Shown here piece by piece: positions 12,663 through 56,799 of a stretch of DNA of 64,000 nt. Numbering within the stretch: the first letter of the stretch is position 1; every line of letters starts with the position of its first letter. The translations under genes were made by a program, and so were the position numbers. The notes under the pieces are model-generated. The model was not told where the DNA came from. It worked only from the letters and a program-made list of their open reading frames with translations, and searched no databases. The DNA comes from Branchiostoma floridae (Eukaryota > Chordata > Leptocardii > Amphioxiformes > Branchiostomatidae), in the NCBI RefSeq assembly GCF_000003815.2, contig NC_049980.1:28915255-28979254 (forward strand), in the 5' to 3' direction.

Positions 12663-12870
12663 TATTCTGTGTTGCTCATTCGACATGCATAGATGGAAAG
12701 GGTTGTAGTCCTTAGGACTCTGGTCCACTGATCATTGTGAATGTCTCCGGAACAATGACATTGGAAGTAATGTACATATGTTCATAGACTGTCTTTTCTG
12801 TCATTACCCAATGGATATATAGTTCTTTAGTGAGCTTAACTGGATCGATATCACTTTTACTTTTTCCCTT
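12663..12870 (+). repeat. Dispersed repeat, diverged copy
   Basis: Matches 13569-13810: GAAAGGGTTG(T/C)AGTCCTTA, TGGTCCACTG, TTAGTGAGCT and a TTTTTCCTTT tail. Looks like a SINE 3' body. Confidence 0.6.
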
Positions 12871-13815: not shown

Positions 13816-14149
13816 TTCTTGTCCGGTTGATCCACGGAGCATATTCCATGCAGCATCACTCTGTCGTGGTATTGGCTGCTTCAGCTTCAGTTGGATTTCA
13901 TCGAGTGCTCCCAGATCCTGTAAAGACATAATAAGATACAGTAAGGAAGAGAAGCAAGAAATGCTGACAAAATTAGAAATTTAATTAAACTTACTTCATT
14001 TACTGAAAGCTTACTAATAGGCAAATGGTTATTCCTCCAGGCTCTCGGATTTGAAAAAATGCATTGGAATGCTACATTGAAAAATCAATATGAAAACGGG
14101 ACATTCCGTGCTGTGCATACAGTTTTTACTGTACTTGTGGGAAAATGCA

Positions 14150-16090: not shown

Positions 16091-16383
16091 AATATTAGAG
16101 GAGAGAACTTTTTTATTGACATGGCAAAAAGAGCAGACAGATTTTTCTATGGTCAGCAATATTCAAATACAACTGAATGAAGATGGAGATGTTGAGTGAC
16201 ATCCATCACTCTTCTTCAGTGTCACTGGTAGAAACGTTTCAATACAAGTACTATATGCATCTAACTAGAAAAAAGTGTTTTAACACGTAAGGATCGTATG
16301 GAAGTATCACTCATGTGTATCAAATTGCTCTCTTATTCATGAAACATACAAGCTTAACTAACACTGCACCTGATGTCTTTCAG

Positions 16384-27714: not shown

Positions 27715-27953
27715 CGGGGGGTACCGCGAGGAGGTGACAGTCGGTTCTTTTTACCCCCCGTTTTTTCTTTTTAGGATTTTTTTCTGTTTGCACTAATTAA
27801 ACTAACTAAATACCTGGTATTTAGTTGAACTAATAATTTTTTTGTAGTTTTATGTTTTTTTGCTTTTTGTCCATGCTAACTACTAATTTTTCCCTATCCT
27901 GACCAGTGATACCCCCCCTCCCCCCATCAGTGGCACAGAAAGCAATTTACTTA

Positions 27954-28109
27954 CTTAACAGTTCCAGGTCCTCTGGTATGGCGTACACACGAGCACCGGC
28001 CTTTCTGGCTGTGGAGATGGAAACCTCTCACCGGGATCAGTCCCACCATTTCAGCTGTAGTTGATCATGGAAGATGCTGAGCGATGTCTCCTTCCCTGCG
28101 TCTTCCCAC
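27954..28109 (-). repeat. Inverted duplicate of 54158-54313
   Basis: 156 bp, about six mismatches by eye, in opposite orientation 26 kb away. Covers a terminal coding stretch (stop TGA) and the DNA after it. Confidence 0.8.
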
Positions 28110-40100: not shown

Positions 40101-42225
40101 CAGGAGGCCAAAAAGTGCTTCACCAAGATCAGGATCATAACACTTAACCATGTTAGAAATATCATCGCAACCCATCCACAGGTTCTTAAGTTAATTCGCT
40201 GCACACACAAACATCCACAAAACAAACAACCCTGTAGATCCACAACAAATAGCTAGAAAGCCGAAATTCACACTAAATAAGTATCCACTATACAACTACC
40301 CACCACATAAAATGCAACACCTCAGCAAGTCTGGGTGCAGAGATATAACACCAAAAGTGCTACTGCAGTACCAATGTCAGCCAACAGGGGGCCCAAAATC
40401 AATCTGCACCATCACCATCCCCACACCTACCCACCTATTGAAAACCATTGCAAACCTTCCAGCAATTCTTGAGATATACCCCACACAATCTCCAGAGTGA
40501 AACAGTATGGCAACAATACCTCCATCTTCATGAAGGTAAAAAAGTGCACACGTAACGTTTTATGGCAATAGGATAATGGCATGTACATGTACCCTACATG
40601 ACCTCTAGAGGGAAAACAGTATGGCAACAATACCTCCATGAAGATGCACAGTTAACCAATTATACGGTCAAAGAATGACATAGTATGCGATAACATTACA
40701 CACAAAGCACAGTTGTCAATCAATTCAGTTGCACAGTGCTAAAAAAACATTTCATTTGCACATTAGGCCATGTTGATTTGATTGTATGGATGACATCTAC
40801 TGGTAAGCCAAAAACTGCATGGGAATAAAAAAAGTTTTGCCAAAAAAAGTTGCCTTCACAATGAAATCTAAGTGGCCAGGAATGTTGAAGAAATGACTGA
40901 ACACACAGTATATAGTATACCGAACAATACCCATCTGATTCTTCAATTTGTTCTTTCACATCTTCACTGGCCATGGAATATTCTATGACATTAGTATACG
41001 TTTCCTAATATATTAACGTCTTTGCATATATTTGCTTATTTTGAAGCTGCTTTGTATGATTTATGGCATGTTAGAAAACTTTTTTTAATTTGAAATAGTA
41101 AAAAATTGATGCGTGTGCAGATGTCATCCATATAATCAAATCAACATGACCTTATACACCTTAAAACAATCGAAGAATGATAGAGCACACACATTAAAAC
41201 ATGAAAAGAACTCTCCTAAAAAACTGACATGACATTTCTACAATATACACCTTAAAACAGAGGAAATGGGGTCACACACAATGTAATTTCAAGCTTCTTA
41301 TAATGTGTGTATAATACATCATTCAGTAATTTTGAGTCTGTAAGTGCTAGCTGTATGATGCTATGTACTAATTCATCTGACTTGTCCATATTTTATGTCC
41401 AGGATGTATGCACAAAGTTCTATTGATTTATTATATATATAAGTTCTTTCAATGACCAATTTTGATGATCACAATGTTTCTTACAAACAGGGCTGTCTTC
41501 AGGATTGCTGGGATGCATAAGACTTTCTTCCCATTGGTTCCCAAAATGTGAACTTCATGACATAGCATTGTGTACTTTTGTGAGCTTCAAAGGGTAAATG
41601 TTACAATGGAAATCAACAACATGAGTGTGAAGGAAAAACATTTTCAGCCAGTGCTTTAGGCTAACGTCACATTTCCAAACCGGAGCCCGGCCAGGCATTT
41701 GTGGAATCAAAAATAGAAATGCATTGTAAATACGTGTTTGAGAAATATACATTAAAAAAATGCCCATGACTATTCTCTTTGCATCTTGTGTAGTTTGGTG
41801 TCTTTCATATCATACTTTTCATTCCCTCAGCCTGGCCGGATCTAGTTTGGAAATGTGACGCTGGCCTTACCAAGGAAACACTGTTAATAAAGGTGCACTC
41901 TCACTGCACTTGCGTCAAGCTTGCGTCACTGCAGGGTTCGTTCACTGCGTCACTTTTTTTGTAATTTTTCTCCAATTTTTTTATAATTTAGATATTGCGT
42001 AATACGTTGAAATATGACTTAGAAGACGACAAAATACACAAAAACTAAATGAATTTCAGAGATAAAATAACAAATTTTCTGATTATCTTTCAAACCCCAC
42101 AGTGACACAAGTGGAGTGAAATACCACCTTAAAGTACCAACTACAAGTTTATCAAACGAATGTCAGCTTACCACAATCTCATGTGCCACGAGAATGGCCA
42201 CTGGGGGAACCTGCTGTTGAGCCAT
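28037..42225 (-). CDS. Unrecognised lineage-specific gene with micro-exons and a Pro/Val/Gln-rich exon
   Basis: I do not recognise this protein. Exons with canonical splice sites on the minus strand join without frame change: 42172-42225 (ATG), 34607-34639, 33896-33922, 31862-32689 and 30437-30463; all are multiples of three and phase 0. The product starts MAQQQVPPVAILVAHEIV and continues VRDAEIVRLRA, ENSLLRNVI and LFLMTVLQNAFN, a heptad-like, leucine-rich segment. It then enters a Gly/Asn-rich stretch and a long VPxPVQ/PAAVPP repeat region. Further exons at 30047-30140 and 28037-28135 (ending DQLQLKWWD stop) follow, but the first of these breaks the frame by one base, so the C-terminus is uncertain. 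An untranslated first exon may lie at 44399-44500. No signal peptide or enzyme motif is seen. It could be a scaffold-like or nuclear low-complexity protein; function unknown. Confidence 0.55.
28389..28739. mobile_element. MITE with GGTACCATCC(A/G)GATAGTAG ends
   Basis: TGGGTACCATCCAGATAGTA at the left and its inverse ...GCGAACTACTACCCGG plus ATGGTACCCA at the right. Interior motif GTCTGGAAT(G/C)(A/G)TCCAAATTTTG is shared with 30751-30960. Confidence 0.75.
29768..29977. mobile_element. Palindromic MITE (TTCGCGG / AAATGCACTTACAGT family)
   Basis: Left TACTGTATTGCAAAAATGTT and right AACTTAAATGCACTTACAGT are inverted. The interior is a near-palindrome around AGACTGCAGTCTA (29873-29885). Confidence 0.75.
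30047..30140 (-). CDS. Putative 94-nt exon
   Basis: Acceptor CACTATAG, donor CGCT|GTAAGT. In the phase expected from upstream it reads NQRYARWVRLALQNGG... and would stop soon after the next junction. In a second frame it reads ...HDDRNGPQEDRHPSA and runs into the WED...KWWD terminal exon. The two options cannot be settled without a transcript. Confidence 0.35.
30437..30463 (-). CDS. 27-nt micro-exon ANAAPGPIR
   Basis: Acceptor CCCATACAG, donor CCGA|GTAAGT. It repeats the ANAA that ends the previous exon, and its 3' end (GGACCCATCCGA) resembles the 3' end of the next exon, suggesting exon duplication. Confidence 0.4.
30505..30722. mobile_element. MITE, TAACGCTAGTTCACCTTTAT family, copy 1
   Basis: 218 bp. 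Ends TAACGCTAGTTCACC and GGTGAACCAGCGTTA are inverted. The interior has two inverted TGGTTTCAA/TTTGAAA-type segments. Confidence 0.85.
30751..30960. mobile_element. Partial copy of the GGTACCATCC MITE
   Basis: CACTATATACAGTGACCC, GTCTGGAATCGTCC and GAGGGCGCTGATTA match 28389-28560; the right end is missing. Confidence 0.6.
31760..31845 (+). mobile_element. LINE 3' tail with (AATC)n
   Basis: TGTACTTAGCCAGGTGTAGC then AATAAAGGTGTTC and four AATC repeats (31830-31848), the 3' terminus pattern of CR1/L2-type LINEs. Confidence 0.5.
31862..32689 (-). CDS. 828-nt low-complexity exon (Gly/Asn then Pro/Val/Gln/Ala repeats)
   Basis: Acceptor TTCTGTCCAG, donor GCCGCC|GTAAGT. 276 codons in phase 0. It opens LFLMTVLQNAFNLNGHGG, passes through a GNNANGNANGHNN stretch and then alternates PVPAAVPPPVPA-type units (DNA unit about 24-30 bp). 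At 32035-32185 there are about eight copies of an 18-bp unit encoding VPVQAP. The exon ends VAQQPANAA. The opposite strand is also open, as expected for a GC-rich 3n repeat. The flanking non-repeat coding sequence and splice sites favour the minus strand. Confidence 0.6.
33508..33850. mobile_element. hAT-type MITE with 8-bp target duplication
   Basis: CAGGGTTGTAGCCAGC and inverse GCTGGCTACAACCCTG. Flanks ATAGTGTC (33500-33507) and ATAGTATC (33851-33858) differ at one base. No long frame inside. Confidence 0.85.
33896..33922 (-). CDS. 27-nt micro-exon
   Basis: Acceptor CTTTTCAG, donor GATA|GTAAGT. Encodes ENSLLRNVI, phase 0. It lies 45 bp beyond the end of a hAT-type MITE, so that MITE is intronic. 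Confidence 0.5.
34607..34639 (-). CDS. 33-nt micro-exon
   Basis: Acceptor CTTTACAG, donor AGCA|GTAAGT. Encodes VRDAEIVRLRA, phase 0, continuing the leucine/isoleucine heptad from the previous exon. Confidence 0.5.
34972..35247 (+). mobile_element. tRNA-headed SINE with perfect 13-bp target duplication
   Basis: The duplication CTCAAAAATCATG is at 34959-34971 and 35248-35260. A box GGGTAGAGTGTTTGCC, B box GAGTTTGATCC; body ends TGTACGGGCAACTTTAACTT. It split a copy of the dispersed repeat found at 39200 and 58120. Confidence 0.85.
35248..35480 (+). repeat. Dispersed repeat R, copy 1 (split by SINE)
   Basis: AAAAATCATGACCATAGCAT, GTCCAGAAC, GGAAGTTCTATTGCAGTACC and a CTAGGGGGG block. Confidence 0.6.
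35528..35600 (+). repeat. Single unit of the KQLLKQLDMI-type repeat
   Basis: AAAAAGCAGTTACTCAAGAA followed by ACTGGATATGATTTTGGAAA, inverted relative to the array at 22244-22640. Confidence 0.5.
35685..36024. mobile_element. hAT-type MITE with perfect 8-bp target duplication
   Basis: CAGGGGTCTAGCCAGC and inverse GCTGGCTAAAGCCCTG, flanked on both sides by CAATATTA (35677-35684, 36025-36032). Interior TGACGGA-type inverted arms. Confidence 0.9.
36033..37116. other. Intron sequence, no gene seen
   Basis: Within the 34.6-42.2 kb intron of the micro-exon gene; no supported exon. Confidence 0.45.
37117..37501. mobile_element. MITE-like inverted pair
   Basis: ACACCTTTCTCACGCAGCGG at the left and CCGCGCATGAAAGGTGT at the right; inverted with two small indels. 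No target duplication established. Confidence 0.45.
38440..38960 (+). pseudogene. LINE ORF2 C-terminal remnant and 3'UTR
   Basis: Frame fragments LNSKLPPYMHQMFVY and YHGHNIWNSLPPDIRC match the L-P-x-Y ... W-N-S-L-P-x-x-I-R pattern at the end of many non-LTR reverse transcriptases. Stops and a frameshift break it. The 3' part ends CATGAATAAACAAAGGTTC. It lies in the intron between 34.6 and 42.2 kb of the micro-exon gene. Confidence 0.65.
39200..39420 (+). repeat. Dispersed repeat R, copy 2
   Basis: ACGACCACAGCATGTCCAGA, GCTAGGGGGCCCAAAATC and ACCTACCCATAT blocks. Confidence 0.65.
39780..39845 (+). other. Hammerhead-core-like motif CTGATGA...GAAAC
   Basis: CAACCTGATGAAGACTTTTG, AATAAAGGTT, then GAAACTGGTAATC. 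Resembles the motif at 8620 and known retroelement ends; stem II is weak here. Confidence 0.25.
40305..40500 (+). repeat. Dispersed repeat R, copy 3
   Basis: ACTGCAGTACCAATGTCAGC, CAGGGGGCCCAAAATC, ACACCTACCCACCTATTGA and ATTCTTGAGATATACC. Confidence 0.55.
40764..41155. mobile_element. MITE, GGCCATGTTGATTTGATT family, copy 1
   Basis: TAGGCCATGTTGATTTGATT at the left and AATCAAATCAACATGACC at the right, with TATGGATGACATC inside both ends. Confidence 0.8.
41656..41869. mobile_element. MITE with GTCACATTTCCAAAC ends
   Basis: TTAGGCTAACGTCACATTTC and inverse GAAATGTGACGCTGGCCTTA, CCGGCCAGGC inside; TTA at both borders. Confidence 0.75.
41890..42131. mobile_element. MITE, AAGGTGCACTCTCACTGCAC family, copy 1
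   Basis: Ends AAGGTGCACTCTCACTGCAC and ...AGTGGAGTGAAATACCACCTT inverted; GGGGTTCG-like arms inside. It lies 41 bp from the ATG exon of the micro-exon gene. Confidence 0.75.
42172..42225 (-). CDS. Start-codon exon (54 nt)
   Basis: Acceptor ...CGACATAG directly followed by ATG, so the exon begins exactly at the start codon; donor GATTGTG|GTAAGC. Encodes MAQQQVPPVAILVAHEIV, phase 0. Confidence 0.55.
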
Positions 42226-42603
42226 CTATGTCGAGGAAGGAAGAATGGAGGGAATGAATAAGTTAATACGTTGAATGAAAATTACTTTCGGTAACTTGCC
42301 GAGACAACATCTAAATAAAATACAGTCTAAATAAATCTGATGGTCATTGATTGGGTCATCATTATTGACTAAGTGAATGAAAGGAAAACAGACTGACATA
42401 CAGGAAGTGAAAAAGTGTATGAACAAATTATTTTGTACAAGATAATTATGGTCACTTTGAATTTCTTACAAAATAAATTATTTTTCAGACTATGCTGGGG
42501 AAAACCCTGATGGCTGTAAATCTCAACTTTTGCCAGAAATGTGTTCATGGTGTTCTTTCAAGTCACTGACCCAGACCTTTCTGATATGTATCCTCCAAAG
42601 CAT

Positions 42604-42606
42604 TAA

Positions 42607-42641
<35 letters not shown>
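42604..42641. repeat. (TA)n microsatellite
   Basis: About 17 TA units with one GT. Confidence 0.85.
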
Positions 42642-42645
<4 letters not shown>

Positions 42646-43106
42646 ATAATTGCTAACTGTGGATCTTAATAAAGTCAATTAAAGCAAACATTAGGATCCG
42701 GAGATATCTCCTCTTCTGCTGAGTGTGTTTCTCCAGTGTTTCCCCTGAGTTTTGACTATTTAACTTAGCTTTGGATGACCATTGGTCCATTGAAGTGAGC
42801 TTTGGATGACCATTGGTCCAAAATGAAATAGATTTTTGAGGAAAAGAAAAAGGAATCTTGCTTGTTGGGACTTTCTCTCCATTGTTCCCCACAGCCAACA
42901 GGTCATTCATTCCTGTTTTTGAGAAGTGCACTGCTAAAATTTTACTTGCTGTCAGGTCTTATACGTTACCTTCTAAATGTTGCAAAATAATCTCCATCAT
43001 TTACAACTATAATAAGTTGTACTTTAACATTATGTAAATTAACTCTTCATTTGTAAATTAGCTCTTAATTTGTGATATCTGTGGACATTCCACTATATCA
43101 GTTACA

Positions 43107-43324
43107 TAACGCTAGTTCACCTATATCCGTGGTGTGACCTTTATCCGTTGTCTTTAAAAACAGCACATTTAGGAGTATCAAGTCTGTGGACTGTGGTTTC
43201 AAATTTTCAATATTTTATAAATGTTCCAATTTGAAACCACCGTCAATCGACTTCATACCCTAAATACGTTTTTTCTTACAAACAACGATATAGGTTACCC
43301 GCGGATAAAGGTGAACCAGCGTTA
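43107..43324. mobile_element. MITE, same family, copy 2
   Basis: 218 bp; same ends and GACCTTTATCCGTTGTCTTT, CAGCACATTTAGGAGTAT as copy 1. Confidence 0.85.
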
Positions 43325-43514
43325 CATGACAAGTTTAAGAATCCTGTTATGAAATGCAGTGAATTTATAGCTAGTCTTTCCTCACTAAATATGCAAATTA
43401 GTCAGTCAACCTATATTTATACCAAATACCATGAGAATTCAATTTTTTTTCTTTCAATGCTAGCCCCTGTATTTCTATCAATGGCTAGGGGGGCAAACAT
43501 GCTTACTTAATCTC

Positions 43515-43720
43515 TTTCTCAAGAGCTATCTACCGCTGAAAAATCATGACCACAGCGTGTTCAGAACGAGAGATCTGAAAAAGGAAGTTCAGCTGCAGTG
43601 TCTTAAAAAGCCGTCAGGGGACCCATTATCGAAGTCGCACTTTGTTTCCCCAACCCGTCCGGACGTTCTTATGAAAATCGCAACAATGGTCGAGACAAGG
43701 ACTGCTTACTTTTTCGAGGA
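43515..43720 (+). repeat. Dispersed repeat R, copy 4
   Basis: ATCATGACCACAGCGTGTTC, GAGATCTGAAAAAGGAAGTT, CTGCAGTGTCTTAAAAAGCC and CAGGGGACCCATTATC. Confidence 0.6.
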
Positions 43721-44398
43721 CTTTACCTTTGACACATTACCTAGGACTCTTTTCCACGTACATGCGTTCTGATCTCTGTGAAAGGGCTTATTAACAAGCA
43801 CACACAGAAAACAGGAAAATGCACCCTACTTGGCGAAGGTATGTAATTTAACACCCCTGCCATTGTGCGATATGTGATTTGCATAACGCGCGAAAATAAA
43901 AATTGTAGAACTTGAAACACAACAACCTTCTTTACAATACACAAATAGCAGAAAATCGGAGAGATTATTTTACGATAGGCAAACACTGCAGCGTCTGATT
44001 CAAATCTGTAAATATTGCACCGATCGTTAATATTCTTGAGACTAAAAGTAAAACGGCATGTTGGTCGGGCCATTTTAACCTTCTTGGTCATGATCAGGCC
44101 AAGAAGGAGTTTGCTCTCAGAGTTCTGCCGGGCGCTACTCTTACTAAGCACTTTTCGATTGTATTTTATGGAAGCCAGTGTTTTATTTTATGACACCGGT
44201 GTCGAGCGCTATCACGGCACTGGCATGTCATAGAAATAACACATCACGCAGAGGATTCTTTGTTCTTCGCTTCTCCTTATAGTCATGGCAACGAAATGAA
44301 ACCATAATTTTAGTACTTAACTTAATTGTGACGATCTCCTACATAATGTTTTACTTAGGTTTATATCACCACATTGAACAGATATATAATGTACTTAC

Positions 44399-44500
44399 TG
44401 TTTGATCTCTACACGCAAGTATCCAACACGAAATTCAACAAATTATCCAACGGAACCAGACGCTGTGCACACGGAACACGTCGCTGCACCGAAGAACGCA
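44399..44500 (-). other. Putative 5' untranslated first exon of the micro-exon gene
   Basis: Minus-strand sequence ending ...GAGATCAAACA|GTAAGTA gives a strong donor with no ATG-initiated frame before it. GC-richer DNA (44460-44530) lies just upstream, and a MITE (44556-44989) sits immediately beyond. The upstream edge is a guess. Confidence 0.35.
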
Positions 44501-44555
44501 CTCAAACTGACGCGGGGGAATTTGCGCAATGACCCACGGGAAACCGCATTATCGT

Positions 44556-44989
44556 AGGCATGTTGATTTGATTTGAAGTTATATGGATGACATCCACGCG
44601 CGCATCAATATTTGGCCGATACCAAAAAATGAAATCTAAAAAAAAAAGAAGTTTTCAACTGTACTGAAAATCGTATAAACAGCTGCAAAATTAGCAAATA
44701 TATGTCCGACGTGAGATTGCAAAGAAATATCTGAAAACGTAGACTAATGTCATAAAAGTGCAAGGTAAAAAATATATATATTAAAGAACAAAAATTAACA
44801 AGAATCTATTGTTCGGTATACCATATACGTGTCTTCAGTCATTTGTTCAACCTTCTTGACTACTTAGATTTCATATTGAAGGCAACGTTGTTGTTGTTTC
44901 TTTGCCAAACTTTTTTTATTCGCACGGTCGCATCAGTTTTGGGGGTTCCTTTCGATGTTATCCATATAATGAAATCAATATGGCCTTAT
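44556..44989. mobile_element. MITE, same family, copy 2
   Basis: TAGGCATGTTGATTTGATTT and TGAAATCAATATGGCCTTA ends with ATGGATGACATCC inside; sits just upstream of the putative first exon at 44399. Confidence 0.75.
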
Positions 44990-45460
44990 TCAAAATTTGA
45001 ATTACAGTACTGTAAATCAGTTCATTTTATCAGAGACTTGGTTTCGCTGTAGAAGGTGAAATGAGGTTTTAGCGTTTGGTGTCAGCGTGGTCGAAACAGT
45101 TTATATAAGACAAATGTGCAGTTTTACTGTAAAAGTGTTACACTGGAATCGCGAAATCACCTGAAGTAACCTCAAAAATAAAATCGTCGTGAACATTTTA
45201 AGTTTTACAGTAATGGACTCATTTATAGTTCGTCCAATCAGGAAGGTGACGGTTATCGGCAAGCAGGTGTAGGCATGACGTGAACATATTTGGCGGAGTT
45301 TTGTGTGTTTCTCCATTGTTGTTGAATTTTCCAATTTTTTTCTGGGGGCGCACAGCCACAAGTCGCCCCGAAAGAACATTGTCTTCAAGTTCACAAGTGT
45401 TATTAGCAAGGTGTGGTGGTTTCTTCGATTTATTTAAAATCTTCGTTCAGCTTTGGACTA

Positions 45461-45650
45461 AGTAGTTCGCTCCATCGTTTATCATCACTATATACAGTCG
45501 CTTCTCGCTCTAACATTTATCATACACTATATACAGTTGCTTATCTGCTGTTCCGTCTGGGATTCTTGGCCACGTTAACGTCTAGTAGACGAGTAGCACA
45601 AGCAAACATACAATAGGAGCGAACTACTACCCGGATGGTACCCAGGCTAC
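45461..45650. mobile_element. Internally deleted copy of the GGTACCATCC MITE
   Basis: AGTAGTTCGCTCC at the left, CACTATATACAGT(C/T)GCTT twice, and GGAGCGAACTACTACC then CGGATGGTACCCAGG at the right. Confidence 0.65.
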
Positions 45651-46192
45651 ACAATAAACTGAAGTTAGATTTCAATATAGCTCCCTCCCCTCCCGTTCTC
45701 CCTCCCCGTTACAATACGTTACTTTCCACGCCTCGCAGTAGACTTTCACATTACAGGCAGCATGATCTTCAATTAGTTGAAGGCGACTGCCTTAATCGAA
45801 AGAAGAAGAAAAAGAAGTTGTTCCAAATATGGTTGTGCGCTTATAGCCTTGTACCCAGCAACTACTCTCCAAGCAGATTCTGGGCTCCGGCCGTTTTTGA
45901 CGCGTTGAAGGCGTTTTGGTCGTGTTTTTGCCATTGTATCATTTTCTTCATCATATACATGTCCATGCAGCGGCCGAACGATACAAAACAGAAAGACAAA
46001 AGCGACTCCTATGTCCGTCTGGAGGATCCGACTCGCTGTGTAGTTTCCTACTGGCTGCAGCGCAAGTTTCCTTAACTCAAAAGTATTTCACCGCGATGCA
46101 ACCACAGTAATTAGACAAAGGGGGGATAGAAAACATTTATTAATTATGTCACGGCAAGTTGTCTCTCAAATGTTAATGCCGGCTTTCACGGC

Positions 46193-46545
46193 CTTAAGGT
46201 GCACTCTCACTGCACTTGCGTCACTGCGGGGTTCGTTCATTGCGTCACTATTTTGTTATTTTCTCCGATTCTTCATAATTTAGCTAAAAGAATTTTTCAT
46301 CAATCAGTGACTGTTATTAAAAGTAAGCAAACGTACCTCCAAATTTCGATGGCTATCGAAAAGCATCTTGCTCACGGAGTGACCTAGTTCTCACGAGAGT
46401 TGCGAGAACTAGGTCAAGACTTGCGTGGATATCTAAATCTTTATAATTTAGATATTGCGTAATACGTCATGGTATGACTTAGAAGACGACAAAATACACA
46501 AACAGTAAGAAAATCCGCTCTTTACCTCTGAAATTCGTTGAGTAT
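46193..46545. mobile_element. MITE, same family, copy 2 with insertion
   Basis: Same left end and ATAATTTAGATATTGCGTAA, ATGACTTAGAAGACGACAAA. Extra ~150 bp (46285-46440) includes the palindrome GACCTAGTTCTC...GAGAACTAGGTC. Confidence 0.7.
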
Positions 46546-46564
46546 CTTTCTTTAATAGAAGATT

Positions 46565-47000
46565 TTTACCTCCATCTTCATTGTTGCTACATTGGTTTAG
46601 CTCTGGAGCTTATGTGGGGGATATCTCAAGAACCGTTGAAAGGTTTGCAATGGTCTGTTTGTTGACCCTGGCACCGCAGCAAAACGTTTTGTGTCATATT
46701 TTTGCACCTGGACTTGCTGTGGTGTTGATTTTTATGTGGTGGGTAGGTGTATGGCGGATGTTGATTTCAGCCTTGTAGCTGTTTGGTGTGGATCAGCAGG
46801 AGTGTTTGTTTTGTGGATGTTTGTGTGTTCGGCGAATATCTTAGGAAGCAGTGGATGGGTTGCGATGAGATTTGTAACGTGGTTAGGTGTTGTGATCGTG
46901 AAGGTCGTTATGCACTTTTTGGGCTCCTGGTGGTTGACCATGGTACCTCAGAAGGTGTTTTATTTTTATGTTTTCAGTAAACTTGTGTGTGAAGAACCTT
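46565..47000 (-). repeat. Dispersed repeat related to R, minus strand
   Basis: Read on the minus strand it has the TGAGATATCCCC, AACATCCGCC and CTACCCACC motifs typical of the R/40 kb repeats. The 103-aa open frame here reflects biased composition, not a recognised protein. Confidence 0.4.
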
Positions 47001-47364
47001 AAGATGGATTGCAATGATTTATAAGGTGTTAGATAGTTCTTGTGCTCCAGAACAAGCTACATTAGCTTGGACCCCTTAGCGGTTAGTTTAGGAATTGCAG
47101 GGATATTGTTGCCAACAAATGCCGAGGAGCATAAGGCAAGAAGAGAATTATGGATATTTTTGGTATGTAGGTAGCTTAGACAAAGATGTACGAAGTGAAT
47201 TGTAAATTATGCAAAGTAGAGAACATTTCATTAATTAATGAGAATATTTTATCATAGTAGTTGTTTTGATGTATCTCTTGTCCCTGTGACATGATGTAGT
47301 TTTGCCATTTGGGTGGAAGGTTGCTTGTGACATCAGGACAAGGTATGACAAAGTTTCAGCCCCT

Positions 47365-47822
47365 TCCTTGGTGTTGAACACTATCAATATATGAGCAACT
47401 AAGTCTGTCCTTGGTGTTGAATACTATCAATACATGAGCAACTAAGTTTGTCCTTGGTGTTGAACACTATCAATACATGAGCAACTAAGTCTGTCCTTGG
47501 TGCTGAACACTATCAATACATGAGCAACTAAGTCTGTCTTTGGTGCTGAACACTATCAATACATGGGCAACTAAGTCTGTCCTTGGTGCTGAACACTATC
47601 AATACATGAGCAACTAAGTCTGTCTTTGGTGCTGAACACTATCAATACATGGGCAACTAAGTCTGTCCTTGGTGCTGAACACTATCAATACATGGGCAAC
47701 TAAGTCTGTCCTTGGTGCTGAACACTATCAATACATGGGCAACTAAGTCTGTCCTTGGTGCTGAACACTATCAATACATGGGCAACTAAGTCTGTCCTTG
47801 ATGTTGAACACTATCAATATGA
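47365..47822. repeat. 43-bp minisatellite, about 11 units (left part)
   Basis: GTGCTGAACACTATCAATAC, ATG(G/A)GCAACTAAGTCTGTCC; TGAACAC recurs every 43 bp (e.g. 47461, 47504). Confidence 0.9.
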
Positions 47823-48222
47823 CCTCCAAGCAGATCCATGCTGGCGTAATATAGTATCAAACCCACCGTAGGATCTGCATTCATTCGGCTTCACAAAAGG
47901 CTATTAACATCCAATTGTTGCCTGATCAAACTGTGTTTGCTGTGTAGGTGTTAATTGCCCTCCTTCATGTTTGGCGAGGATCTCCTACAGGGATGTGCGC
48001 GGGTCAATGAACTTGTCCCAATAAAGATATAAATTGCTCGTAAAATCATTAGCACCTCAAAAATTCGTGTAGCTGTTAATATAGCGCAGGGAGGGGCAGA
48101 GAAACCTTTATTCAATAGAAATGCTCCTCCCTGTTCGAGTGAAGGCAGATCTCCGGTGCCCGTTTGACTCCCTTTGACCGGCTTTTATACTATGTTATGG
48201 CACCGTAGGATCTGCTTCGAGA
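47823..48222. mobile_element. MITE inserted in the 43-bp minisatellite
   Basis: CCTCCAAGCAGATCC at the left and GGATCTGCTTCGAG at the right are inverted, with ATATAGTAT.AAA / TTT.ATACTATG inside. The minisatellite resumes on both sides. Confidence 0.75.
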
Positions 48223-48490
48223 TTATATCATTACACGAGCAACTAAATCTGTCCTTGGTGTTGAACACTATCAATACATGGGCAACTAAGTCTGTCCTTG
48301 GCGCTGAACACTATCAATACATGAGCAACTACCTCTGTCCTTGGTGCTGAACACTATCAATACATGAACAACTAAGTCTGTCCTTGGTGCTGAACACTAT
48401 CAATACATGAACAACTAAGTCTGTCCTTGGTGCTGAACACTATCAATACATGAATAACTAAGCCTGCCATTGGTGCTGAACACCATAGTA
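48223..48490. repeat. 43-bp minisatellite, about six units (right part)
   Basis: Same unit as 47365-47822. Confidence 0.88.
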
Positions 48491-48499
48491 AGTACGTCT

Positions 48500-49080
48500 G
48501 TTCATGGTGCAAGTACAAAATGGAGCAAGGATTTTGGGGACCATCCACTTCACATGGCGTGGGAGGAGAGACCAACCACTCCACAAGGGTAAGGTAAGGG
48601 AGGAACCATCCGTTTCACGAAGGATAGGTTGGGTAAGGGAGGGACACATGGGGTCAAAGCATCTGGGAAGGGGAACTTGCCATATAAATATGGATGTATG
48701 GTAAGTATGGGACCAACCATTTCAGATTAATTGTGTGAGAAAGGGGGGCGATCATTCTACCTGGGGGTAAGGGTCTAAGAAGAAAGGCTATCTGTTTCAT
48801 GTCGAGCAAAATGACTTTGGGAAGGGGGCGTCCATTTAACACGGGTAAAGAATATAGAAAAGGATCTGGGACGGGATCATCCATTTCACACGGGGTTATA
48901 TATATATATATATATATAATTAAGGATCTGGAAAATGGCCATGGGATAACATACTCTTGGAAAGGGGGCAAACATAGAAACAATGGTAGGAGAGGGGGAC
49001 CAACCACTTCACACATGGGATTAAGGGTATGGGAAGGGGCCATCCAATACACATGGGCGTAAGGGTCTAAAAAGGGGAAA
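48500..49080 (+). repeat. Degenerate GGACCATCCATTTCAC minisatellite
   Basis: Units of about 60 bp with ACCA(T/A)(C/T)C(A/G)(T/C)TTCAC, ATGGGGT and GGGTCTAAGAAG-type blocks. A short inverted counterpart lies at 56080-56290. Confidence 0.65.
48896..48918. repeat. (TA)n microsatellite
   Basis: About 11 TA units inside the preceding array. Confidence 0.8.
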
Positions 49081-49117: not shown

Positions 49118-49123
49118 TTTATT
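49118..49123 (-). terminator. Polyadenylation signal AATAAA (unit M)
   Basis: Minus-strand AATAAACAGTTTGAAATC; lies past the first foldback, where unit M would end. Confidence 0.35.
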
Positions 49124-49689
49124 TTAAATCAATAGATGAATGCAAAGTGTACACATATGTACAATGTACAGAGCCACACAGTACAAAAATTGCTCTAGCA
49201 CTAAAGCTAAATAAATCGATCTAAAACATAACATCTACCCATTTACGTAAACAATTATCCTCACTCTAGAACACAATAGGCAACAGAGCCTAGAATCAGT
49301 AAATGTCGACATTGCCAGTACATAGTATAGTGGTATATTGGAGCCTTTGTACGTGAAGAATCATAGAAATCTTTTATGCAGTCTTAATGTTAAGGCTTTG
49401 AACTGATTGTTAGTTTTACAAAAAGATGTTGTATTAGTGTGTGTGTGTATGTATGGTGCGGTTAGTCTGTTAGTGTGCGTGTGTGTGCTAGTAGTGTGTG
49501 AGTGTTTGTGTAAGCGTCAGCCAAAGCCTTAGGTTGGGAAATTTCCAAATGACTGATTTAAAAGGCTACAAACAACCTCTACACAATAAACAGACAATGT
49601 TGACATCAATATTACTAACCTGTAGACCACTTATCATTATGTACAAAAATACAAGTTTAATTACATGTGTCTAACATCGTGATATACAT

Positions 49690-50075
49690 TATGGCTGTAC
49701 GATGGCACACTTTGCATTCTGTTTGGATTGATTCAGTTTCTGTGATTGTGTCGATACCGAGAAGCCTAGTGTTTCTAAAGTACCAAGTTCTTAAATAAGC
49801 TGTCTTTCTTTCTGGCCTGTGTCGTTCTCTTGGTTCGGGACCCAAGATAGCGACACAAAGCAGATTATGTAATGGTCCAGGTTCCCGACTACCACTGACC
49901 ACGACATGAAACAGAAATGACAACAGATAATGATTAACCAGGAAAGGTCCTGTTTTATAAAGAACAGAATTTACAGTAACTGGTTGAGTACGATAAGGGC
50001 CATTAACACAGCCACAGAAACCAAATCAGTCACACATCGGGCCTGTACAACACAGAAGCGGGCTGAAGTCCTGAG
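49690..50075. repeat. Foldback 1 (large imperfect palindrome)
   Basis: The left part (TTTCTGTGATTGTGTCG...) is the reverse complement, with mismatches, of the right part (...ACAGCCACAGAAACCAAATC). The centre contains TTGGTTCGGGACCCAAGA and AATGGTCCAGGTTCCCGAC, shared with the other two foldbacks. Arms about 190 bp. Confidence 0.6.
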
Positions 50076-51572
50076 TGCATCTTTCTGGACGTCACGGTGG
50101 AGAGGGCATCAGGCAGCCTCTAATCAGGATAAGTCCATACATTGCAGCTGCAGTTGATCCGGGCTTGATGGCACCAATAAGATACTGGAAGCTCCTGAGA
50201 GATGTCGCATTTCAAACTTGTTGTACCTGCAAGAAAATGAACAGCAAACGATTATGACGAGATAGACCAGCAATATTTTGCTGTTTGAAATCAAAACATT
50301 TTGAAATTTGGCCCAAGTTTGGCTTATGTTCTTGACAGGAGCAGAAATGGTGACAGAAAGCATACAGAAGAGGTCAAGAGAGTACCTCCTGTAATGACCA
50401 TGATGGCTGTGACGCAAAAATGTAACGTGAACTGGTACAATTATAGGTTATTATAATGATCTTATCTGATCAAAGTTGGTACAAACTGTTCAACATCAGT
50501 GACACACTGTATTTTCGGTGTAAGTTGTACAGGATACTCACAGTTGTGTCAACCCAGTCAACAGTCTTCTTGTTTGCTTCCTTCCTCCAATACTAGCGAA
50601 CAGGTTCCAAAGCAGGGCCAGGACGTATGCACGCATCAGCTGCCTCACAGATAAGCTGTTCACACCTACGTCCTAATTTTGAAAAGCAAAAGAAAACTCT
50701 ACTAAGCATTGTTCATGTTCAGGCATTGAACTTGTCAGCTAAAGATTGCTATCCTATTACTGCTTTCATACCCGGGTACCCATACAATACAGTACAGCAC
50801 AGCACCTTGTCATATGTCTCTGAAAGACTGTATGCCTCCTTGGCTCGGTGATGTACTGGATGTTGACCAGCACTTTCAGTGACAGGCGATTCACAGCTCG
50901 ATTCCCCAGCTCCTATCCTCTCTTACGGCGTGCAGGCGTTTCTAACAAATCGGTAAAAGAAACAGTCATACATGATTTGCCTCAACAAACACACAAGGTG
51001 CAGATAACAATATTTACGACCAATTTTTCCACTTCACAAACAGTAATACAAAGGTATTCATATACTTTAAAGTAATAGAAGATACTCTTCTACTGAGAGT
51101 CTATTTGTTTAGGTACCGAAATCGAAATTGATACTGTAAACTTAAACTTACCAACACCAATGAAAAAGTCATCCATGGACAAAGACTGTTGTCTTACAAT
51201 TGAAAACTGTGTTCTTTCACACAATACGGTACTATACCTTGTCATATTGGAAGACTGAATCCCCATTCGGTCACGTCCGGTACCTCCCTACGTCAGTCCT
51301 CGCCTCCCTTTCCACGTCCGGACATTTCTTCTTACGGTGCGATGATCCTCGGCAGAAAAGACAAGACGAAAATGAATTATTTTGGCTCAGGAATGTAGGA
51401 AATATACCTTACAAGTACAGAATGTTAACTTGGTTTGTGATTAAAATTTCCGTTCTAGGTTTATCGTGGAAAAAGTGGGATGAATTTATGTGTAGTAACG
51501 ATTGAGTGTGCTTTGATGAAATCCCAAGTAATGTTGACGTTTGTTTCGGTTTAAATTTCGAGAAGCTATATA

Positions 51573-51992
51573 TGACTGCTTCAGTCTGTTTCTGTGGTAT
51601 ACAAGCCCGATGAATGGCTGATTCGGTTTCTGTGACTGTGTCTACGCCGAGAAGTCGACTATTCTACAGGAATTAACTACTAATATAAAATAGGTTCTTC
51701 AATCACCTGTCGTCCTTTCTGGCCTGTGTTGTTCTCTTGGTTCGGGACCCAAGAGAGCGACACAAAGCAGATTATGTAATGGTCCAGGTTCCCGACAACC
51801 ACTGACCATGACATAAAACAGAAATTACAACAGATGGTGAACCAGGGAAGACCCTGTTTTGTAAAGCACAGAATTTACGTACAATAACTGACCGAATACA
51901 ATCCGGTCATCAACAGTCACAGAAACCAACAGAAATAAAAATCAGCCACACACCAGGCATGTACACAATAAAAACGGAGTCAAGCCTTGACT
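51573..51992. repeat. Foldback 2
   Basis: Same family as foldback 1. The block from 51716 to 51805 (TGGCCTGTGTTGTTCTCTTG...) is nearly identical to 49815-49905. Arms pair TCGGTTTCTGTGACTGTG with a CAGTCACAGAAACC segment near 51918. Confidence 0.6.
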
Positions 51993-52344
51993 GCAAAAAG
52001 AGCCTCCGTTTACAAAATGCACATCCGAATATCTACCAGAAACATCCCTTGGTATGTCAACAAAACACACTCAATTCATTTACTTTCTATCGTGCCTATG
52101 ACAAGTTATTCCCAGTCCATATCTGCAAGATGTTACCATTTTAACCCCTTAAGACACATAAGCACTTAACTTGAACCTTGTAGCTGCAGTTGATCCGGAA
52201 ATGATGGCACCAATAAGCTCCTAGAAGCAAAAAAAGGGAATAAGGTAGAGGCAGAATAACGTCTTATTTTGGTAATGAATTCACAAGGATGCCCCACATG
52301 TAAATTTTTGCATTCTCGGACGGGCACAAAAGACTTGAACGTTA

Positions 52345-52372
52345 TTTCTTCTTCTTCTTCTTCTTCTTCTTC
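52345..52372. repeat. (CTT)n microsatellite
   Basis: Nine TTC units. Confidence 0.85.
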
Positions 52373-52521
52373 AGTGCCTTCAATCTTAGAGAAGATTATT
52401 ATGGCACTTTTTTATTTATTGAACTACTGATAACCTGTACAAGACGTATAAACACATAAAAGCGCAGACTAACCTGTTGTCTCAAGCGGCCGCGATGTTG
52501 TTCTGTGTGCTGCGAGCTGAG

Positions 52522-52801
52522 TCCGTCACCTGGCGCTGGCAGACGAGTGGCGGGGTTTCATGCAAATAAGAACAGGGGCAGGTCTTCGATTCGCTCAGTC
52601 TGCATGATAGCATAATATAATAATTCCTTGACCAATCACAGACCAGTAATCTTTTTTACCTGTGTCCGTCACCTTAGACGCGCTAGCAGACGATTGCCGG
52701 GGTTTCACGCAGATAAAAACAGGGGCAAGTCTTCGATTCGCCCAGTCTACAAAATGTATTTAATTTCTTGACCAATCACAGACCAGTAATCTTTTTCACC
52801 T
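52522..52801. promoter_or_regulatory. Duplicated CCAAT-box region between the divergent units
   Basis: Two 140-bp direct repeats (52522-52661 and 52662-52801). Each contains GTCCGTCACC, a GGGGTTTCA segment, AACAGGGGCA followed by TCTTCGATTCGC, and TTGACCAATCACAGACCAG with a CCAAT box at 52632 and 52772. Position between units M and P suggests a bidirectional promoter; this is inference. Confidence 0.4.
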
Positions 52802-52974
52802 GTGTTGGGCACGCGTTTGTTAGCTTTTCCAAGCCACGGCATTGTCATTCGACTCTTGAATCATACGAGACAGACGACAAGCCCTGCTTATCTATGTAGG
52901 TGGACTTTATTAATTCATTGCTGTTTATCAGAGGTGCCCGGTTCTAATTGTGCGCCACTTTTCCACTTACCGTT

Positions 52975-53018
52975 GGCTAGCCCAAGGAGGTTAAAGAAAG
53001 TAACCTCCTTGGCTAGCC
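52975..53018. repeat. Near-perfect hairpin GGCTAGCC(C)AAGGAGGTTA
   Basis: Stem of 18 bp with one bulged C, loop AAGAAAG. A second hairpin with stem CAAGGAGGTT lies at 19335-19364. Confidence 0.6.
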
Positions 53019-54157
53019 GTTGAAACTTTTTGCGTTTGTTGCAGTGGTGGCGAGACAGTTGATGCGAGCCCGTCTCTTCTATCGGAATCGCACCGTATGG
53101 AAAAATATCTACCGGTACTTCACGACACGTTCCGGGAGTCGTCGGGAGAATCTTCGGGTTCATCTTTGAGGACCTCCGTGGTGCTCAAAACAGCAGACTG
53201 ACGTCTAGGTCTTTCCCATGCATATGACAAGGTAAAGAAGCTGTGTTGGCTTTTCATTTGACGTTATCTGCGCCATGTTGAATTACAGCGTAAGTGATTA
53301 CACGAAGGTGCTTAATTCAATTACCCGCCAATATGGTCATCGGAGGATTCAAAATCATAATTAGACAAAGTATGATGTCATTAAAAAGCCTGTATTCATG
53401 AGGAAAAATGCTAGTAATATGTCGTCATCATCAGATATTTATTTGTAGGACAACAGTCTTTGTCAAAGCAACACATTCATTATTAGTTTCAATTTCTGTA
53501 TAGGAACTCTGACAGCAGAAGTCGTGACTGCAGAATCAGTGCACAGTATTGAAGCACGGTTGGACCTGTGCTGGGGGAGGAAGGAGTACTGCGTGTGACA
53601 GGAGGGTGACACGACAGGCAGCAAAGCCTAATTCACCAAGGAATCCTGCACGATATCCCCCACAAGGTAAATATTGACATTAGTAGTACTATTAGAGTTT
53701 CTAATGTTGTGTATCACATTCAACCAATGGACAGTCGTTGAGCCTTTGTTGGTTGTTGCAGCCGTGGTGAATCAGCTGATGAATGTATGTTTCTTTTACC
53801 GAAATCACAGCAAAATTCATGTCTGGACGAGAGGAGCTGGATAAGGGAGGTGCCACGCAGCAGCGTCACTGAAGGTGTTCCTCGACATCAGTGCATGACC
53901 AATCCAAGGAGGCACCAGGCCCAACACGTAAGGTGTTCTTCTGAATTCAGAGTAAAGAGGTTTTGGGACAACACATGCAGACCTTCATTACAAATGCAAT
54001 ATTCTATTACGTAACTCTGCATGACTTCGGTTACCATTTCCACTCCTGTTGGGGCATAAAGACGTCCCTGTGACCCTTTTAATTGTTTTGGTTACATAAA
54101 ATGAAAATAACGTTAGTCTGCCTTGTCCTAATTGACTGTTAATTTCACGTCCTTGCA

Positions 54158-54313
54158 GTGGGAAGACGTAGGGAAGGAGACATCACTCAGCATCTTCCAG
54201 GATCAACTACAGCTGAAATGGTGGGACTGATCCCGGTGAGAGGTTGCCATCTCCACAGCCAGAAAGGCCGGTGCTCGTGTGTACGCCATACCAGAGGATC
54301 TGGAACTGTTAAG
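54158..54313 (+). repeat. Inverted duplicate of 27954-28109
   Basis: Begins at acceptor CCTTGCAG and ends at GGAACTGTTAAG. Mismatches are scattered equally over the coding-like and following parts, which suggests a recent copy rather than selection on the protein. Confidence 0.8.
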
Positions 54314-54573
54314 TTCGTACATGTCTTGTAAGGGGTTTGATTGTTTAAAACGGAACCATCTTACAGAAATGGGCTGGGATTGGCATGATAGGAAGTAAAT
54401 GATCTGTGATGTTATATTCATAACTTTGCTGATATTAAGATTCCCTTTGTCTACCTGAGACATTGTCGGCAGGGCTGATCACAATCTCTTGGTTGGTGGC
54501 AAGGTGTTTGAGTGTGTTTTGTTGACACCCTGAGTGATGTTGTTGGCAGGTGTGGTTAGGGCATTTTGTGAGT

Positions 54574-55082
54574 GGGGGCTTCTTTTACACACGGGACTTC
54601 AGCCCGTTTCTGTGGTGTACTGGCCTGGTGTGTGGCTGGTTTGGCTTCCGTGACTGTGTTGATGGCTGAAATTGTGTTCGGAGTTACTGCGAAGTTCAGT
54701 CCTTTAGAAAGCAGGGATTTGCTGGATCTGTTGGTTTATGACGACTTGGGTTCTTCTACCACCTGTTGTCTTTTCTGCCTTGTGTGATGGTCTAGGGCCG
54801 GGAACCTACTAGTAGACCATTACATAAGATGCTCTGTGTCGTAATCTTGGCTCCCGAACCAAGACGACGACACGGGGCCAGAAAGGAAGACAGGTGGTTG
54901 AAGAGTGCAAGTTGTTGTGAGCTGACAGAACTGGGAGGTCTCGGTTCTCTGAAGGGCAGAGCTCTTCAGTACCTTCGAATGCAGTCTCGGCCATGGACAT
55001 GGTCACAGAAACCGAATCGGCCATACATCGGGCCTGAATACCGCAGGAATAGGCTGAAGCGCTGTGTGTAGAAGTAGCCACT
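54574..55082. repeat. Foldback 3 (about 240-bp arms)
   Basis: Left arm (GGGACTTCAGCCCGTTTCTG...) and right arm are imperfect reverse complements around a centre near 54800-54830 (GGGAACCTACTAG). Shares ACCATTACATAA and the TTGG(T/C)TC(G/C)GGA motif with foldbacks 1 and 2. Follows the terminal exon module of unit P. Confidence 0.65.
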
Positions 55083-55856
55083 GCTCTCAGAATGTCCTAC
55101 CCCCTACCAGCAGCATTACTCGGGGTGTCATCAAAATGTGCTCAACTCCTTGCCACCTATCAAGAGATCATGATTCTCTCTGCTGATAATGCTTCAGGTA
55201 GACAGAGGGGATGGGAAATTTCTAGGTTGAACCTAGAACCGAAACTAGAGTCACAAATCAAGTTACTTCCTGTCATGCCCCCAGCAGTCTGTAGATGTTC
55301 TTGTTTTCACAGAATACAAAGTGTACAATTTTATAGTCATCAATGTCCTCTGGAGTCTATTTGGCGTACTGTAATAAGCACCAGTACCTCTGAGCAAGTT
55401 ACATTGATTTGTTTTTCTCTATCAGCACAAATAAAAACTACTAGTAGTCTTTTCTCGTCTTCCTGAGTTAGGGACTGTTGGTTTTACAGTGTCAAACATT
55501 GTACGTACTGTGTTCTGATGGCGTCTGGGTTTGACTGTAGCCAGTAGTCGGTGTTTAAAAAATGCTATACATAGTACGTATTGATGTATTTCTTGTCTTG
55601 CATTCTTTCCATGTATTTCTTCGATTAAGACCTTTTGTTCTCACTTTATATTTCGTGTATTTTGTGGACTTTCTTGTACAATACTAGTAACCTTGTCCGC
55701 ATTGTCATAGAAAGTCATCTTGTCCAAGAACACTAAGATCAAAAGATTTTTTTTCGTTTGTGTACTTAGTAATCTATTTCGTTTAAAAATGTCAAGTACA
55801 ACCTGACCAACATATTGTACTCTTTGTTTCCCCGAATGTATCAAGAAATGTTATTG

Positions 55857-55862
55857 AATAAA
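55857..55862 (+). terminator. Polyadenylation signal AATAAA (unit P)
   Basis: AATAAA in ...TTATTGAATAAACGG followed by TGTTG-rich sequence 15-25 bp later, a typical polyA context on the plus strand. Confidence 0.4.
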
Positions 55863-55913
55863 CGGTTTAAAACAAGGTGTTGTTTCAATTTCTCTATTCC
55901 AACAACCTCAACC

Positions 55914-56062
55914 TTAAAGGGGCATTCCACTGCAGAAGGGAGTGTTATATTGTAATAGATAATGTATCAACATAACAAGACGTGTTTTTCTTAGCGCCCC
56001 TGAAATTAGCTTTATATCTATCGGAAAATAACAATCCCGTCTGGAGTGGAATGTCCCTTTAA
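55914..56062. mobile_element. 149-bp MITE with TTAA borders
   Basis: TTAAAGGGGCATTCCACTGC and the inverted right end TTAAAGGGACATTCCACTCC; TTAA at both borders (piggyBac-like or Kolobok-like target). Confidence 0.85.
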
Positions 56063-56079
56063 GTGAAGTGATACCTACC

Positions 56080-56290
56080 TCCACCCACACCCTCCAACTG
56101 CCGACAATGGATGGTCCCTCTCTCCCACATCCTGAAGTTTGTGAAATGGATGGTTCATTGGACTCCCTTCCTTACCAGAACCTGAAGACCATCAAATGAA
56201 TGTACCATCTCCCTTTCCCAACATGTAAATCTTGTCCCTCCCTTCCTGGTCCCTCACCTCCATATGAAATGGACGGTCCCTATGTGTTGG
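56080..56290 (-). repeat. Inverted counterpart of the GGACCATCCATTTCAC minisatellite
   Basis: GTGAAATGGATGGTTC, AATGGATGGTCCC and GAAATGGACGGTCCC. Confidence 0.55.
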
Positions 56291-56799
56291 AGGGAATAAA
56301 TTGGAAATTTTAAATTTTCACAAAATGTACGCCCAATGACGCAAGATCACCGATGTTCCTTAATAATGTGCAAACCTGCCATGTTATGACTTCAGTCTGT
56401 TTACTGGTTAATGCAATTTAAGCAGGCATAGTCGACATTGAATTACATCCATGCACAGAAAGTGTGAGGCGACTAAGATAAAGAAGACAGGAAACAATTT
56501 CTCATGTACACAGTCTTTTTAATAAACCTTCTTTTAAAACAACAAAATGTACAGCACGGGTATATTCTACTCTATGCTGTTCCAAAAACATACAAATATT
56601 GGTCGTTCGGTGTAACATAACTAGCTGCTGCCGCGCCGCGTGCCTGCGAAGCTGGTGTGTTACCCCAAACGGCGGTTATACCGGCTATAAAGATACAGAC
56701 AGAAATATCAATACTTAACATTACATTAGTCATTCAGGGAAAGGATAGGTAATTTAGATGCAGGTAGCCCCTTTCAGGGCTGTAGGGGCAGTGGGTTGT

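Follow-up and report, generated by a model that had tools for sequence, protein, structure and literature searches.

The window analysed here is a 64,000-nucleotide stretch of the Branchiostoma floridae genome (C2:28915255-28979254; C numbers denote contigs) and contains a repeated block in which exon-like modules lie head to head around a promoter-like region and end in large palindromes. The palindrome on the plus side, here called hairpin P, is at the core of the finding: it is present in multiple conserved copies, and the divergence of its arms reveals a constraint on pairing that acts on one strand. The initial annotation of this DNA had described the modules over 49118-55880; this interval is indeed repeated, but the block is larger, extending from a 43-bp tandem array at 47365 to ~56290, with pieces to ~56590.

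Self-comparison of the window recovered the described mirror order of the modules as collinear matches between the plus and minus sides, and resolved three decayed copies of one unit, introns included, arranged head to head and each ending in the same foldback. Two of these units follow each other in tandem on the minus side, the outer at 51343-49690 and the inner, which is incomplete, at ~52262-51400, and each is collinear with the plus side including intron-side sequence. This agrees with the initial annotation, which noted a partly repeated set with two foldbacks there; the minus side also carries a second remnant of DQLQL (52228-52175). Specifically, 53087-53109 matches 51343-51321, 53209-53233 matches 50828-50804 (the exon end ATGACAAG followed by GT), 53765-53802 matches 50987-50950 (the QLM stretch), 53865-53914 matches 50883-50833 (PRRH) and 54197-54248 matches 50163-50112 (DQLQL), with the foldback next in order. 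These short matches are individually weak (E values up to 0.32), and the case rests on their collinear order together with stronger pieces. Because intron-side sequence matches too (54016-54204 with 50368-50181, 65%), the units are whole-segment duplicates; the modules are mirrored but not loose, and the foldbacks are not independent captures. All three units have the foldback in the same position, and a tree of their six arms places the left arms in one group and the right arms in another; therefore, one foldback predates the copying of the units. Between the two sides lie two ~140-bp units in tandem (52533-52672 and 52680-52812, 81% alike), which together carry one octamer ATGCAAAT and two CCAAT boxes. 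A scan for bacterial promoters gave no hit, a result that says little about an animal genome. The exon-like modules in mirror order thus belong to noncoding, decayed units that have one promoter-like block in common.

The large palindrome reported initially exceeds chance expectation by a wide margin (self-match of 54440-55212 over 779 columns at 69%, E 2e-110). Folded as plus-strand RNA, 54340-55320 reaches -589 kcal/mol compared to -315 kcal/mol (standard deviation (sd) 8.5) for 20 shuffled sequences (z -32), with arms that are only ~68% identical, and the opposite strand folds at -413 kcal/mol. Versions decayed neutrally by the same number of changes fold at -455 kcal/mol (sd 14) when given the transition share of the control palindromes described below and at -489 kcal/mol (sd 15) when given the hairpin's own transition share (n=60 for each). 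The arms of P differ by 68 G.U-type changes, 16 A.C-type changes and 38 transversions (p 8.5e-9), and the strand that is favoured is the strand of the splice-like sites and AATAAA. The inner minus foldback (Mi) has a similar bias on the minus strand, which is the strand predicted for its transcript (21 G.U to 8 A.C, p 0.024, z -9.4). As a control, we used 26 other palindromes with arms of at least 55 nt outside the blocks in the same 308 kb; they have 130 G.U-type and 130 A.C-type differences and 334 transversions, and none of the 26 has p<0.01. Because the control palindromes are balanced, the G.U excess is not a general habit of this genome. Eight further palindromic matches in the blocks outside the plus hairpin (31 G.U, 36 A.C) were left uncounted.

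A genome-wide search with the modules (513,431,437 bases in 431 contigs) gave 43 matches to the promoter-like region, 81 to the hairpin and 47 to the DQLQL exon; the conserved core is the foldback rather than the exons. With 40 of 159 hairpin candidates scored, there are at least 27 full-length sense copies (at least 726 of 773 bases) on 17 contigs, comprising the window's own, 14 at 92-95% identity and 12 at 75-81% identity. Eighteen of these were analysed further: the copy in the window, five of the 14 close copies and the full set of 12 divergent copies. All 18 have a G.U excess and fold better in the sense than in the antisense orientation, with sense energies of -438 to -642 kcal/mol and 77-85% of nucleotides paired.

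Five further copies of the block, on C3, C1, C14, C5 and C7, were compared with that of the window. All five contain the whole block, with pieces matching the window at ~79-97%, and a probe for the hairpin tip revealed two or three minus-side units per copy. The hairpin is accompanied by the right end at 15 loci, one of them the window, and is partial at C16. The left flanks are unrelated in C3, C1, C14 and C7, where homology begins inside the 43-bp array, and the phase of this left edge within the array varies. At C5, homology continues leftward past the array; because C5 and the window have common sequence from 34.2 kb on, both belong to one duplication. This duplication lies on two large contigs, with 34195-48810 matching C5:22383000-22431500 at ~81-96% by piece, left of and into the block. 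A 170-nt copy of the DQLQL exon, 94% alike and with sharp edges, lies at 27940-28109 on the minus strand and is not followed by a foldback. We considered exon capture for this copy, but a second, similar copy at C5:22372898 suggests instead that it is part of the C2/C5 duplication. Elsewhere, C2:8068701-8080897 contains two hairpins in the same orientation ~11 kb apart with a promoter-like match between them. Moreover, ~59 bp of the promoter-like block (52763-52822) recur at a dozen or more loci, in some cases a few kb from DQLQL-like or partial hairpin matches (C3:11532937, C5:10559314, C7:11431235), and our count may therefore understate both the size and the age of the family.

Among the six close copies (the window's and five others), the hairpin is the best conserved named plus-side part, with a mean identity of 0.945 and 1.2% gaps compared to identities of 0.882-0.928 and 0.6-41% gaps for the plus-side exons, introns and tail, and conservation is highest in a 120-nt window at the hairpin tip (0.973). 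The hairpin accumulated 0.0305 changes per column and the upstream sequence 0.0539, with 123 transitions and 56 transversions in the former and 256 and 204 in the latter (p 0.003). In each of the six copies, G.U changes are in excess (58-68 G.U versus 14-18 A.C, p 4e-7 to 5e-9); sense folding energies range from -605 to -642 kcal/mol and antisense energies from -424 to -462 kcal/mol. Recent changes of Watson-Crick pairs led to G.U in 51 cases, to A.C in 23 (p 0.0015) and to transversions in 37, while 26 recent changes restored a Watson-Crick pair from G.U. The promoter-like block is common to all six, with the octamer in six of six and two CCAAT boxes in five of six; in C7, one CCAAT box is present in the shorter stretch inspected. 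As the initial annotation proposed, splice and polyadenylation signals are in place for the most part, splice-like sites being retained in 4-6 of the six copies and AATAAA being present ~110 nt past the hairpin in five of six. The proposal that DQLQL is the terminal module is not supported, as a donor-like site at 54328 follows it in four of six copies.

The same bias is found in each of the 12 divergent copies (39-75 G.U versus 9-18 A.C, p 8e-4 to 2e-12; summed, 746 G.U, 181 A.C and 498 transversions), which fold at -438 to -600 kcal/mol in sense and -306 to -418 kcal/mol in antisense orientation. In a further test, we set the pairs on the six close copies and applied them to the other 12, represented by two group majorities and two single copies. 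Here, Watson-Crick pairs changed to G.U in 139 cases, to A.C in 40 and by transversion in 77, and double changes led to another Watson-Crick pair in 29 cases and to a broken pair in 20. In an alignment of all 18 copies, 96.0% of the cells of a 287-pair RNAalifold structure, which was derived from this same alignment and is therefore favoured by the test, can pair compared to 94.9% after shuffling, 36 pairs have two-sided changes compared to 18.6 (sd 2.9), and all five covariation measures lie above 500 of 500 shuffles; in slid controls, 40-46% of cells pair. In a tree of the 36 arms, all left arms are separate from all right arms, with the same main subgroups on both sides. We also inspected the 3 kb upstream of two divergent copies (less 765 letters in one of them); beyond the hairpin and its edge, only pieces of 30-127 nt match, and one of the two copies also matches a 57-kb repeat. 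In these two copies, the hairpin is nearly all that is recognisable.

We considered other sources of the G.U excess. Strand-biased mutation was rejected, as the upstream flank is unbiased (C>T 78, G>A 72, A>G 57, T>C 49) and change within the hairpin is slower. A mutator acting only on the hairpin is disfavoured because it would raise the rate of change there, whereas the rate is lower; the ratio of A.C differences to transversions does not by itself separate hairpins (181:498) from controls (130:334), and it is the lower absolute rate that does so. A-to-I editing written into the DNA is also disfavoured, since the polarised G.U-type differences in P include both A>G (12) and C>T (8); of the 68 differences, 7 are shared and 41 are ambiguous or have no outgroup. 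Gene conversion from arm to arm is disfavoured by the separation of the 18 left from the 18 right arms in the tree. Conversion between copies could add to hairpin identity but makes no G.U bias.

The features of the block are compiled in Table 1. Within Mi, mean identity among the six copies is 0.942 and rises to 0.976 at 51720-51809. A palindromic stretch at 55913-56063 that resembles a miniature inverted-repeat transposable element (MITE) lies within the block and is bypassed when the window is aligned to the C3 and C5 copies, and a short near-perfect hairpin at 52977-53014 is mostly skipped in alignments with the five other copies. Outside the block, the window has nested 37/112/137-bp tandem arrays with several open minus-strand frames (11109-12670), a 354-bp unit repeated 5.7 times (14135-16175) and, on the minus strand, a 303-residue frame rich in Pro, Val and Ala (31829-32740) that matches no Pfam family, with exon-like pieces further down this strand toward 28 kb.

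Table 1 Components of the repeated block, in window coordinates
Feature	Position	Strand	Evidence or remark
43-bp tandem array, two blocks (47365-47819 and 48226-48486)	47365-48486	.	Left end of repeated block
Tail of outer minus unit, AATAAA at 49123 on minus strand	49123-49690	-	
Outer minus foldback (Mo), truncated, decayed	49690-50110	-	z -2.6, GU:AC 9:6
DQLQL-like exon, outer minus unit	50112-50240	-	79% match to 54197-54248
QLM/PRRH exon-like stretch ending in ATGACAAG before GT	50804-50987	-	Plus/minus comparison
Exon-like stretch ending in ATGACAAG before GT	51241-51343	-	51270-51359 95% alike in six copies
Inner minus foldback (Mi), partly paired	51400-52150	-	z -9.4, GU:AC 21:8
DQLQL remnant, inner minus unit	52175-52228	-	85% to 50139-50192
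Promoter-like tandem pair, ~140-bp units	52533-52812	.	Near full-length copies elsewhere at 96, 96, 93, 81%
Candidate exon (QLM)	53045-53232	+	Donor GT at 53233 in 6/6 copies
Candidate exon	53502-53666	+	Acceptor in 5/6, donor in 6/6 copies
Candidate exon (QLM/PRRH)	53762-53929	+	Acceptor in 5/6, donor in 6/6 copies
Candidate DQLQL exon	54160-54327	+	Acceptor AG in 6/6, donor GT in 4/6 copies; 47 matches genome-wide
Predicted kilobase RNA hairpin (P), core of the finding	54340-55320	+	Folding, G.U bias, copies
Two AATAAA past hairpin, at 55430 and 55857	55430-55862	+	First one in 5/6 copies
Right part of repeated block	56072-56291	.	25 genome matches: 15 hairpin-bearing loci including the window, plus others

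Taken together, these data provide strong evidence for selection on an RNA hairpin and point to a previously unrecognised family of putative double-stranded RNA (dsRNA) genes in which pairing has been kept while the sequence changed. It is somewhat more likely than not that the block is one locus of a multicopy family of noncoding genes, dispersed through the genome, that give rise to a long hairpin RNA comparable to the hairpin RNAs (hpRNAs) of Drosophila. In our working model, a bidirectional promoter would drive, in one direction, the plus-side unit, with its short noncoding exons, the ~1-kb self-complementary stretch and a polyadenylation signal, and, in the other, tandem units of a similar make-up that have decayed further. 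The transcript would be a long noncoding RNA, the 3' part of which would fold into a hairpin and be used as dsRNA; selection would keep the plus-side arms pairing as RNA by tolerating changes from Watson-Crick to G.U pairs and removing most changes that break pairs. Most simply, the hairpin would serve as an hpRNA-type precursor that is cut by Dicer into small RNAs silencing related transcripts. Of the initial proposal of a young gene family driven by a shared promoter, the noncoding form agrees with our data; the coding form does not, and a young age is not supported, as the foldback is older than subfamilies differing by 20-25%.

Transcripts with paired inverted repeats, e.g. inverted repeats in 3' untranslated regions (UTRs), arise from pairs of transposon copies and likewise provide noncoding intramolecular dsRNA. 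To our knowledge, 3' UTR inverted repeats have not usually been shown to be maintained over 20-25% sequence divergence. In Drosophila, an hpRNA is a long inverted repeat in an mRNA-like primary transcript (PMC10292708), which Dicer processes into ~21-22-nt siRNAs used by an Argonaute against one or a few highly complementary target genes. As with hpRNA loci such as Nmy and Tmy of D. simulans, we find a long inverted repeat and several related loci per genome, and the repeat would here, too, lie in an mRNA-like transcript. Unlike those loci, the present family lies in a chordate genome and has at least 27 full-length copies; its palindrome is old, and its arms differ by ~30%, with G.U pairs contributing to their pairing. 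No target was found for it among the candidates scored. A literature search, which covered few subscription journals, found no comparable amphioxus family described in titles or abstract openings among the matches listed.

Several observations weigh against this interpretation. The copies are related, the 18 analysed forming only about five lineages, and three of the 27, located on small contigs, could represent haplotype duplicates, the C166 copy being very close to one on C14. Conservation is not confined to P, as the promoter-like block (96, 96, 93 and 81%), Mi (0.942) and 51270-51359 (0.950) are also conserved, and the outer minus foldback Mo has no significant bias (9:6, z -2.6, with 1 of 100 shuffles at least as good). 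Double changes are close to the numbers expected under independence (6 versus 3.5, 11 versus 9.4, 18 versus 16.4 and 27 versus 18.9), with 18 of the 27 in the last comparison broken; between P and the Mi foldback there are 5 with 4.6 expected, a comparison with too little power. Slid controls have 19-30 two-sided pairs compared to the 36 of the actual alignment, and the covariation term of RNAalifold for the six close copies amounts to only -1.4 of -619 kcal/mol. We conclude that two-sided compensation is modest and that the evidence consists mainly of G.U tolerance and mismatch removal. Moreover, the hairpin genome search, in which 40 of 159 candidates were scored and short matches would be missed, singled out no target gene. 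Finally, small-RNA libraries of B. lanceolatum yielded miRNA and piRNA (microRNA and Piwi-interacting RNA) candidates and, in the available parts of that report, no population of small interfering RNAs (siRNAs) (PMC6396948); these parts do not discuss single hairpin loci other than miRNAs.

That last observation would fit an alternative that we regard as rather unlikely, in which a genuine hairpin RNA is under selection for a structural or protein-binding role as dsRNA, e.g. as a scaffold, a decoy or a signal for editing or retention, with no processing into siRNAs. All evidence for selection at the RNA level applies equally to such an RNA, and the many G.U pairs and the forked tip, which is the most conserved part, are in line with it. 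On the other hand, the constraint extends over nearly a kilobase, which is more than a binding site needs, and the data suggest neither a protein partner nor a known RNA family: Rfam 15 gave no match at the gathering score in the window, the only sub-threshold match in 52400-55900 being sn1185 (22.6 bits versus 60, E 0.26).

It is still less likely that the block is a large mobile element and that its hairpin, in the form of either RNA or single-stranded DNA from one of the strands, helps the element itself to multiply. The spread of the block is such that it may be mobile: there are about 15 young copies, which lie on different contigs and have, in four of the five compared, unrelated left flanks with the left edge at varying phase in the tandem array, and G.T tolerance on one strand would fit single-stranded DNA as well. 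However, no Pfam family was found at E up to 1 in ten stop-free frames from the region and elsewhere in the window, and neither target-site duplications nor defined termini, including a fixed left one, were seen by eye at the block edges of six loci, the hairpin's own termini not having been searched. In addition, intron-like stretches persist in the copies, which argues against a simple retrocopy of a spliced RNA, and two divergent copies keep the hairpin in surroundings that are nearly unrecognisable.

The initial annotation had offered, as its second option, a foldback transposon that captured exons. In that form, this option is not supported, in view of the joint occurrence of hairpin and right end at 15 loci and of the whole block in five copies, and of a foldback that predates the copies and has arms constrained as a one-strand RNA, for which a DNA foldback has no need. 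For an ordinary foldback or MITE-like palindrome that decays after copying without any RNA function, the odds are poor. Such DNA transposons are, like P, palindromic with long inverted arms, multicopy and dispersed, and Mo looks neutral; yet the hairpin changes more slowly than its flanks, lies in a larger block with promoter-like and splice-like sequence, and has a one-strand G.U excess in 18 of 18 copies versus the 130:130 balance of the control palindromes. Arm divergence lacking strand bias, by which we set foldback and MITE-like elements apart in this analysis, is not what P displays. Least probable of all, and by our estimate highly improbable, are remains of a protein-coding gene family with broken frames, to which the exon-like modules with splice-like sites and the short frames at 54 and 28 kb, DQLQLKWWD among them, would be suited: in the plus-side exons, to which the coding test across copies was confined, no frame is open through all four candidates in all six copies, insertions and deletions break the frame differently, conservation does not drop past the apparent stop, and the ten frames contain no Pfam family. 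Because the six copies share no reading frame, the plus-side frames look broken, in agreement with the initial annotation.

Returning to the hpRNA-like family, we tentatively suggest, as a possibility that is for now the less probable outcome, that it may be a large, old and still constrained amphioxus hpRNA family, with at least 27 full-length loci in about five lineages, whose dedicated long hairpins would feed an endogenous siRNA pathway in a chordate in which bulk sequencing of small RNAs has reported no siRNAs, with a lineage turnover resembling that of hairpin-target arms races in flies. The predicted kilobase RNA duplex can be traced through about five lineages within one genome, with selection for pairing read from the DNA itself against internal controls. 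The one-strand comparison of G.U with A.C differences between arms, with palindromes as controls, is cheap and could be used genome-wide in other species to tell RNA hairpins apart from transposons in decay. Should the hairpins be diced, they would constitute an unnoticed source of endogenous siRNAs in amphioxus and offer a direct test of why no siRNA population appeared in the published libraries; if they are not, they would represent an unusually large conserved dsRNA.

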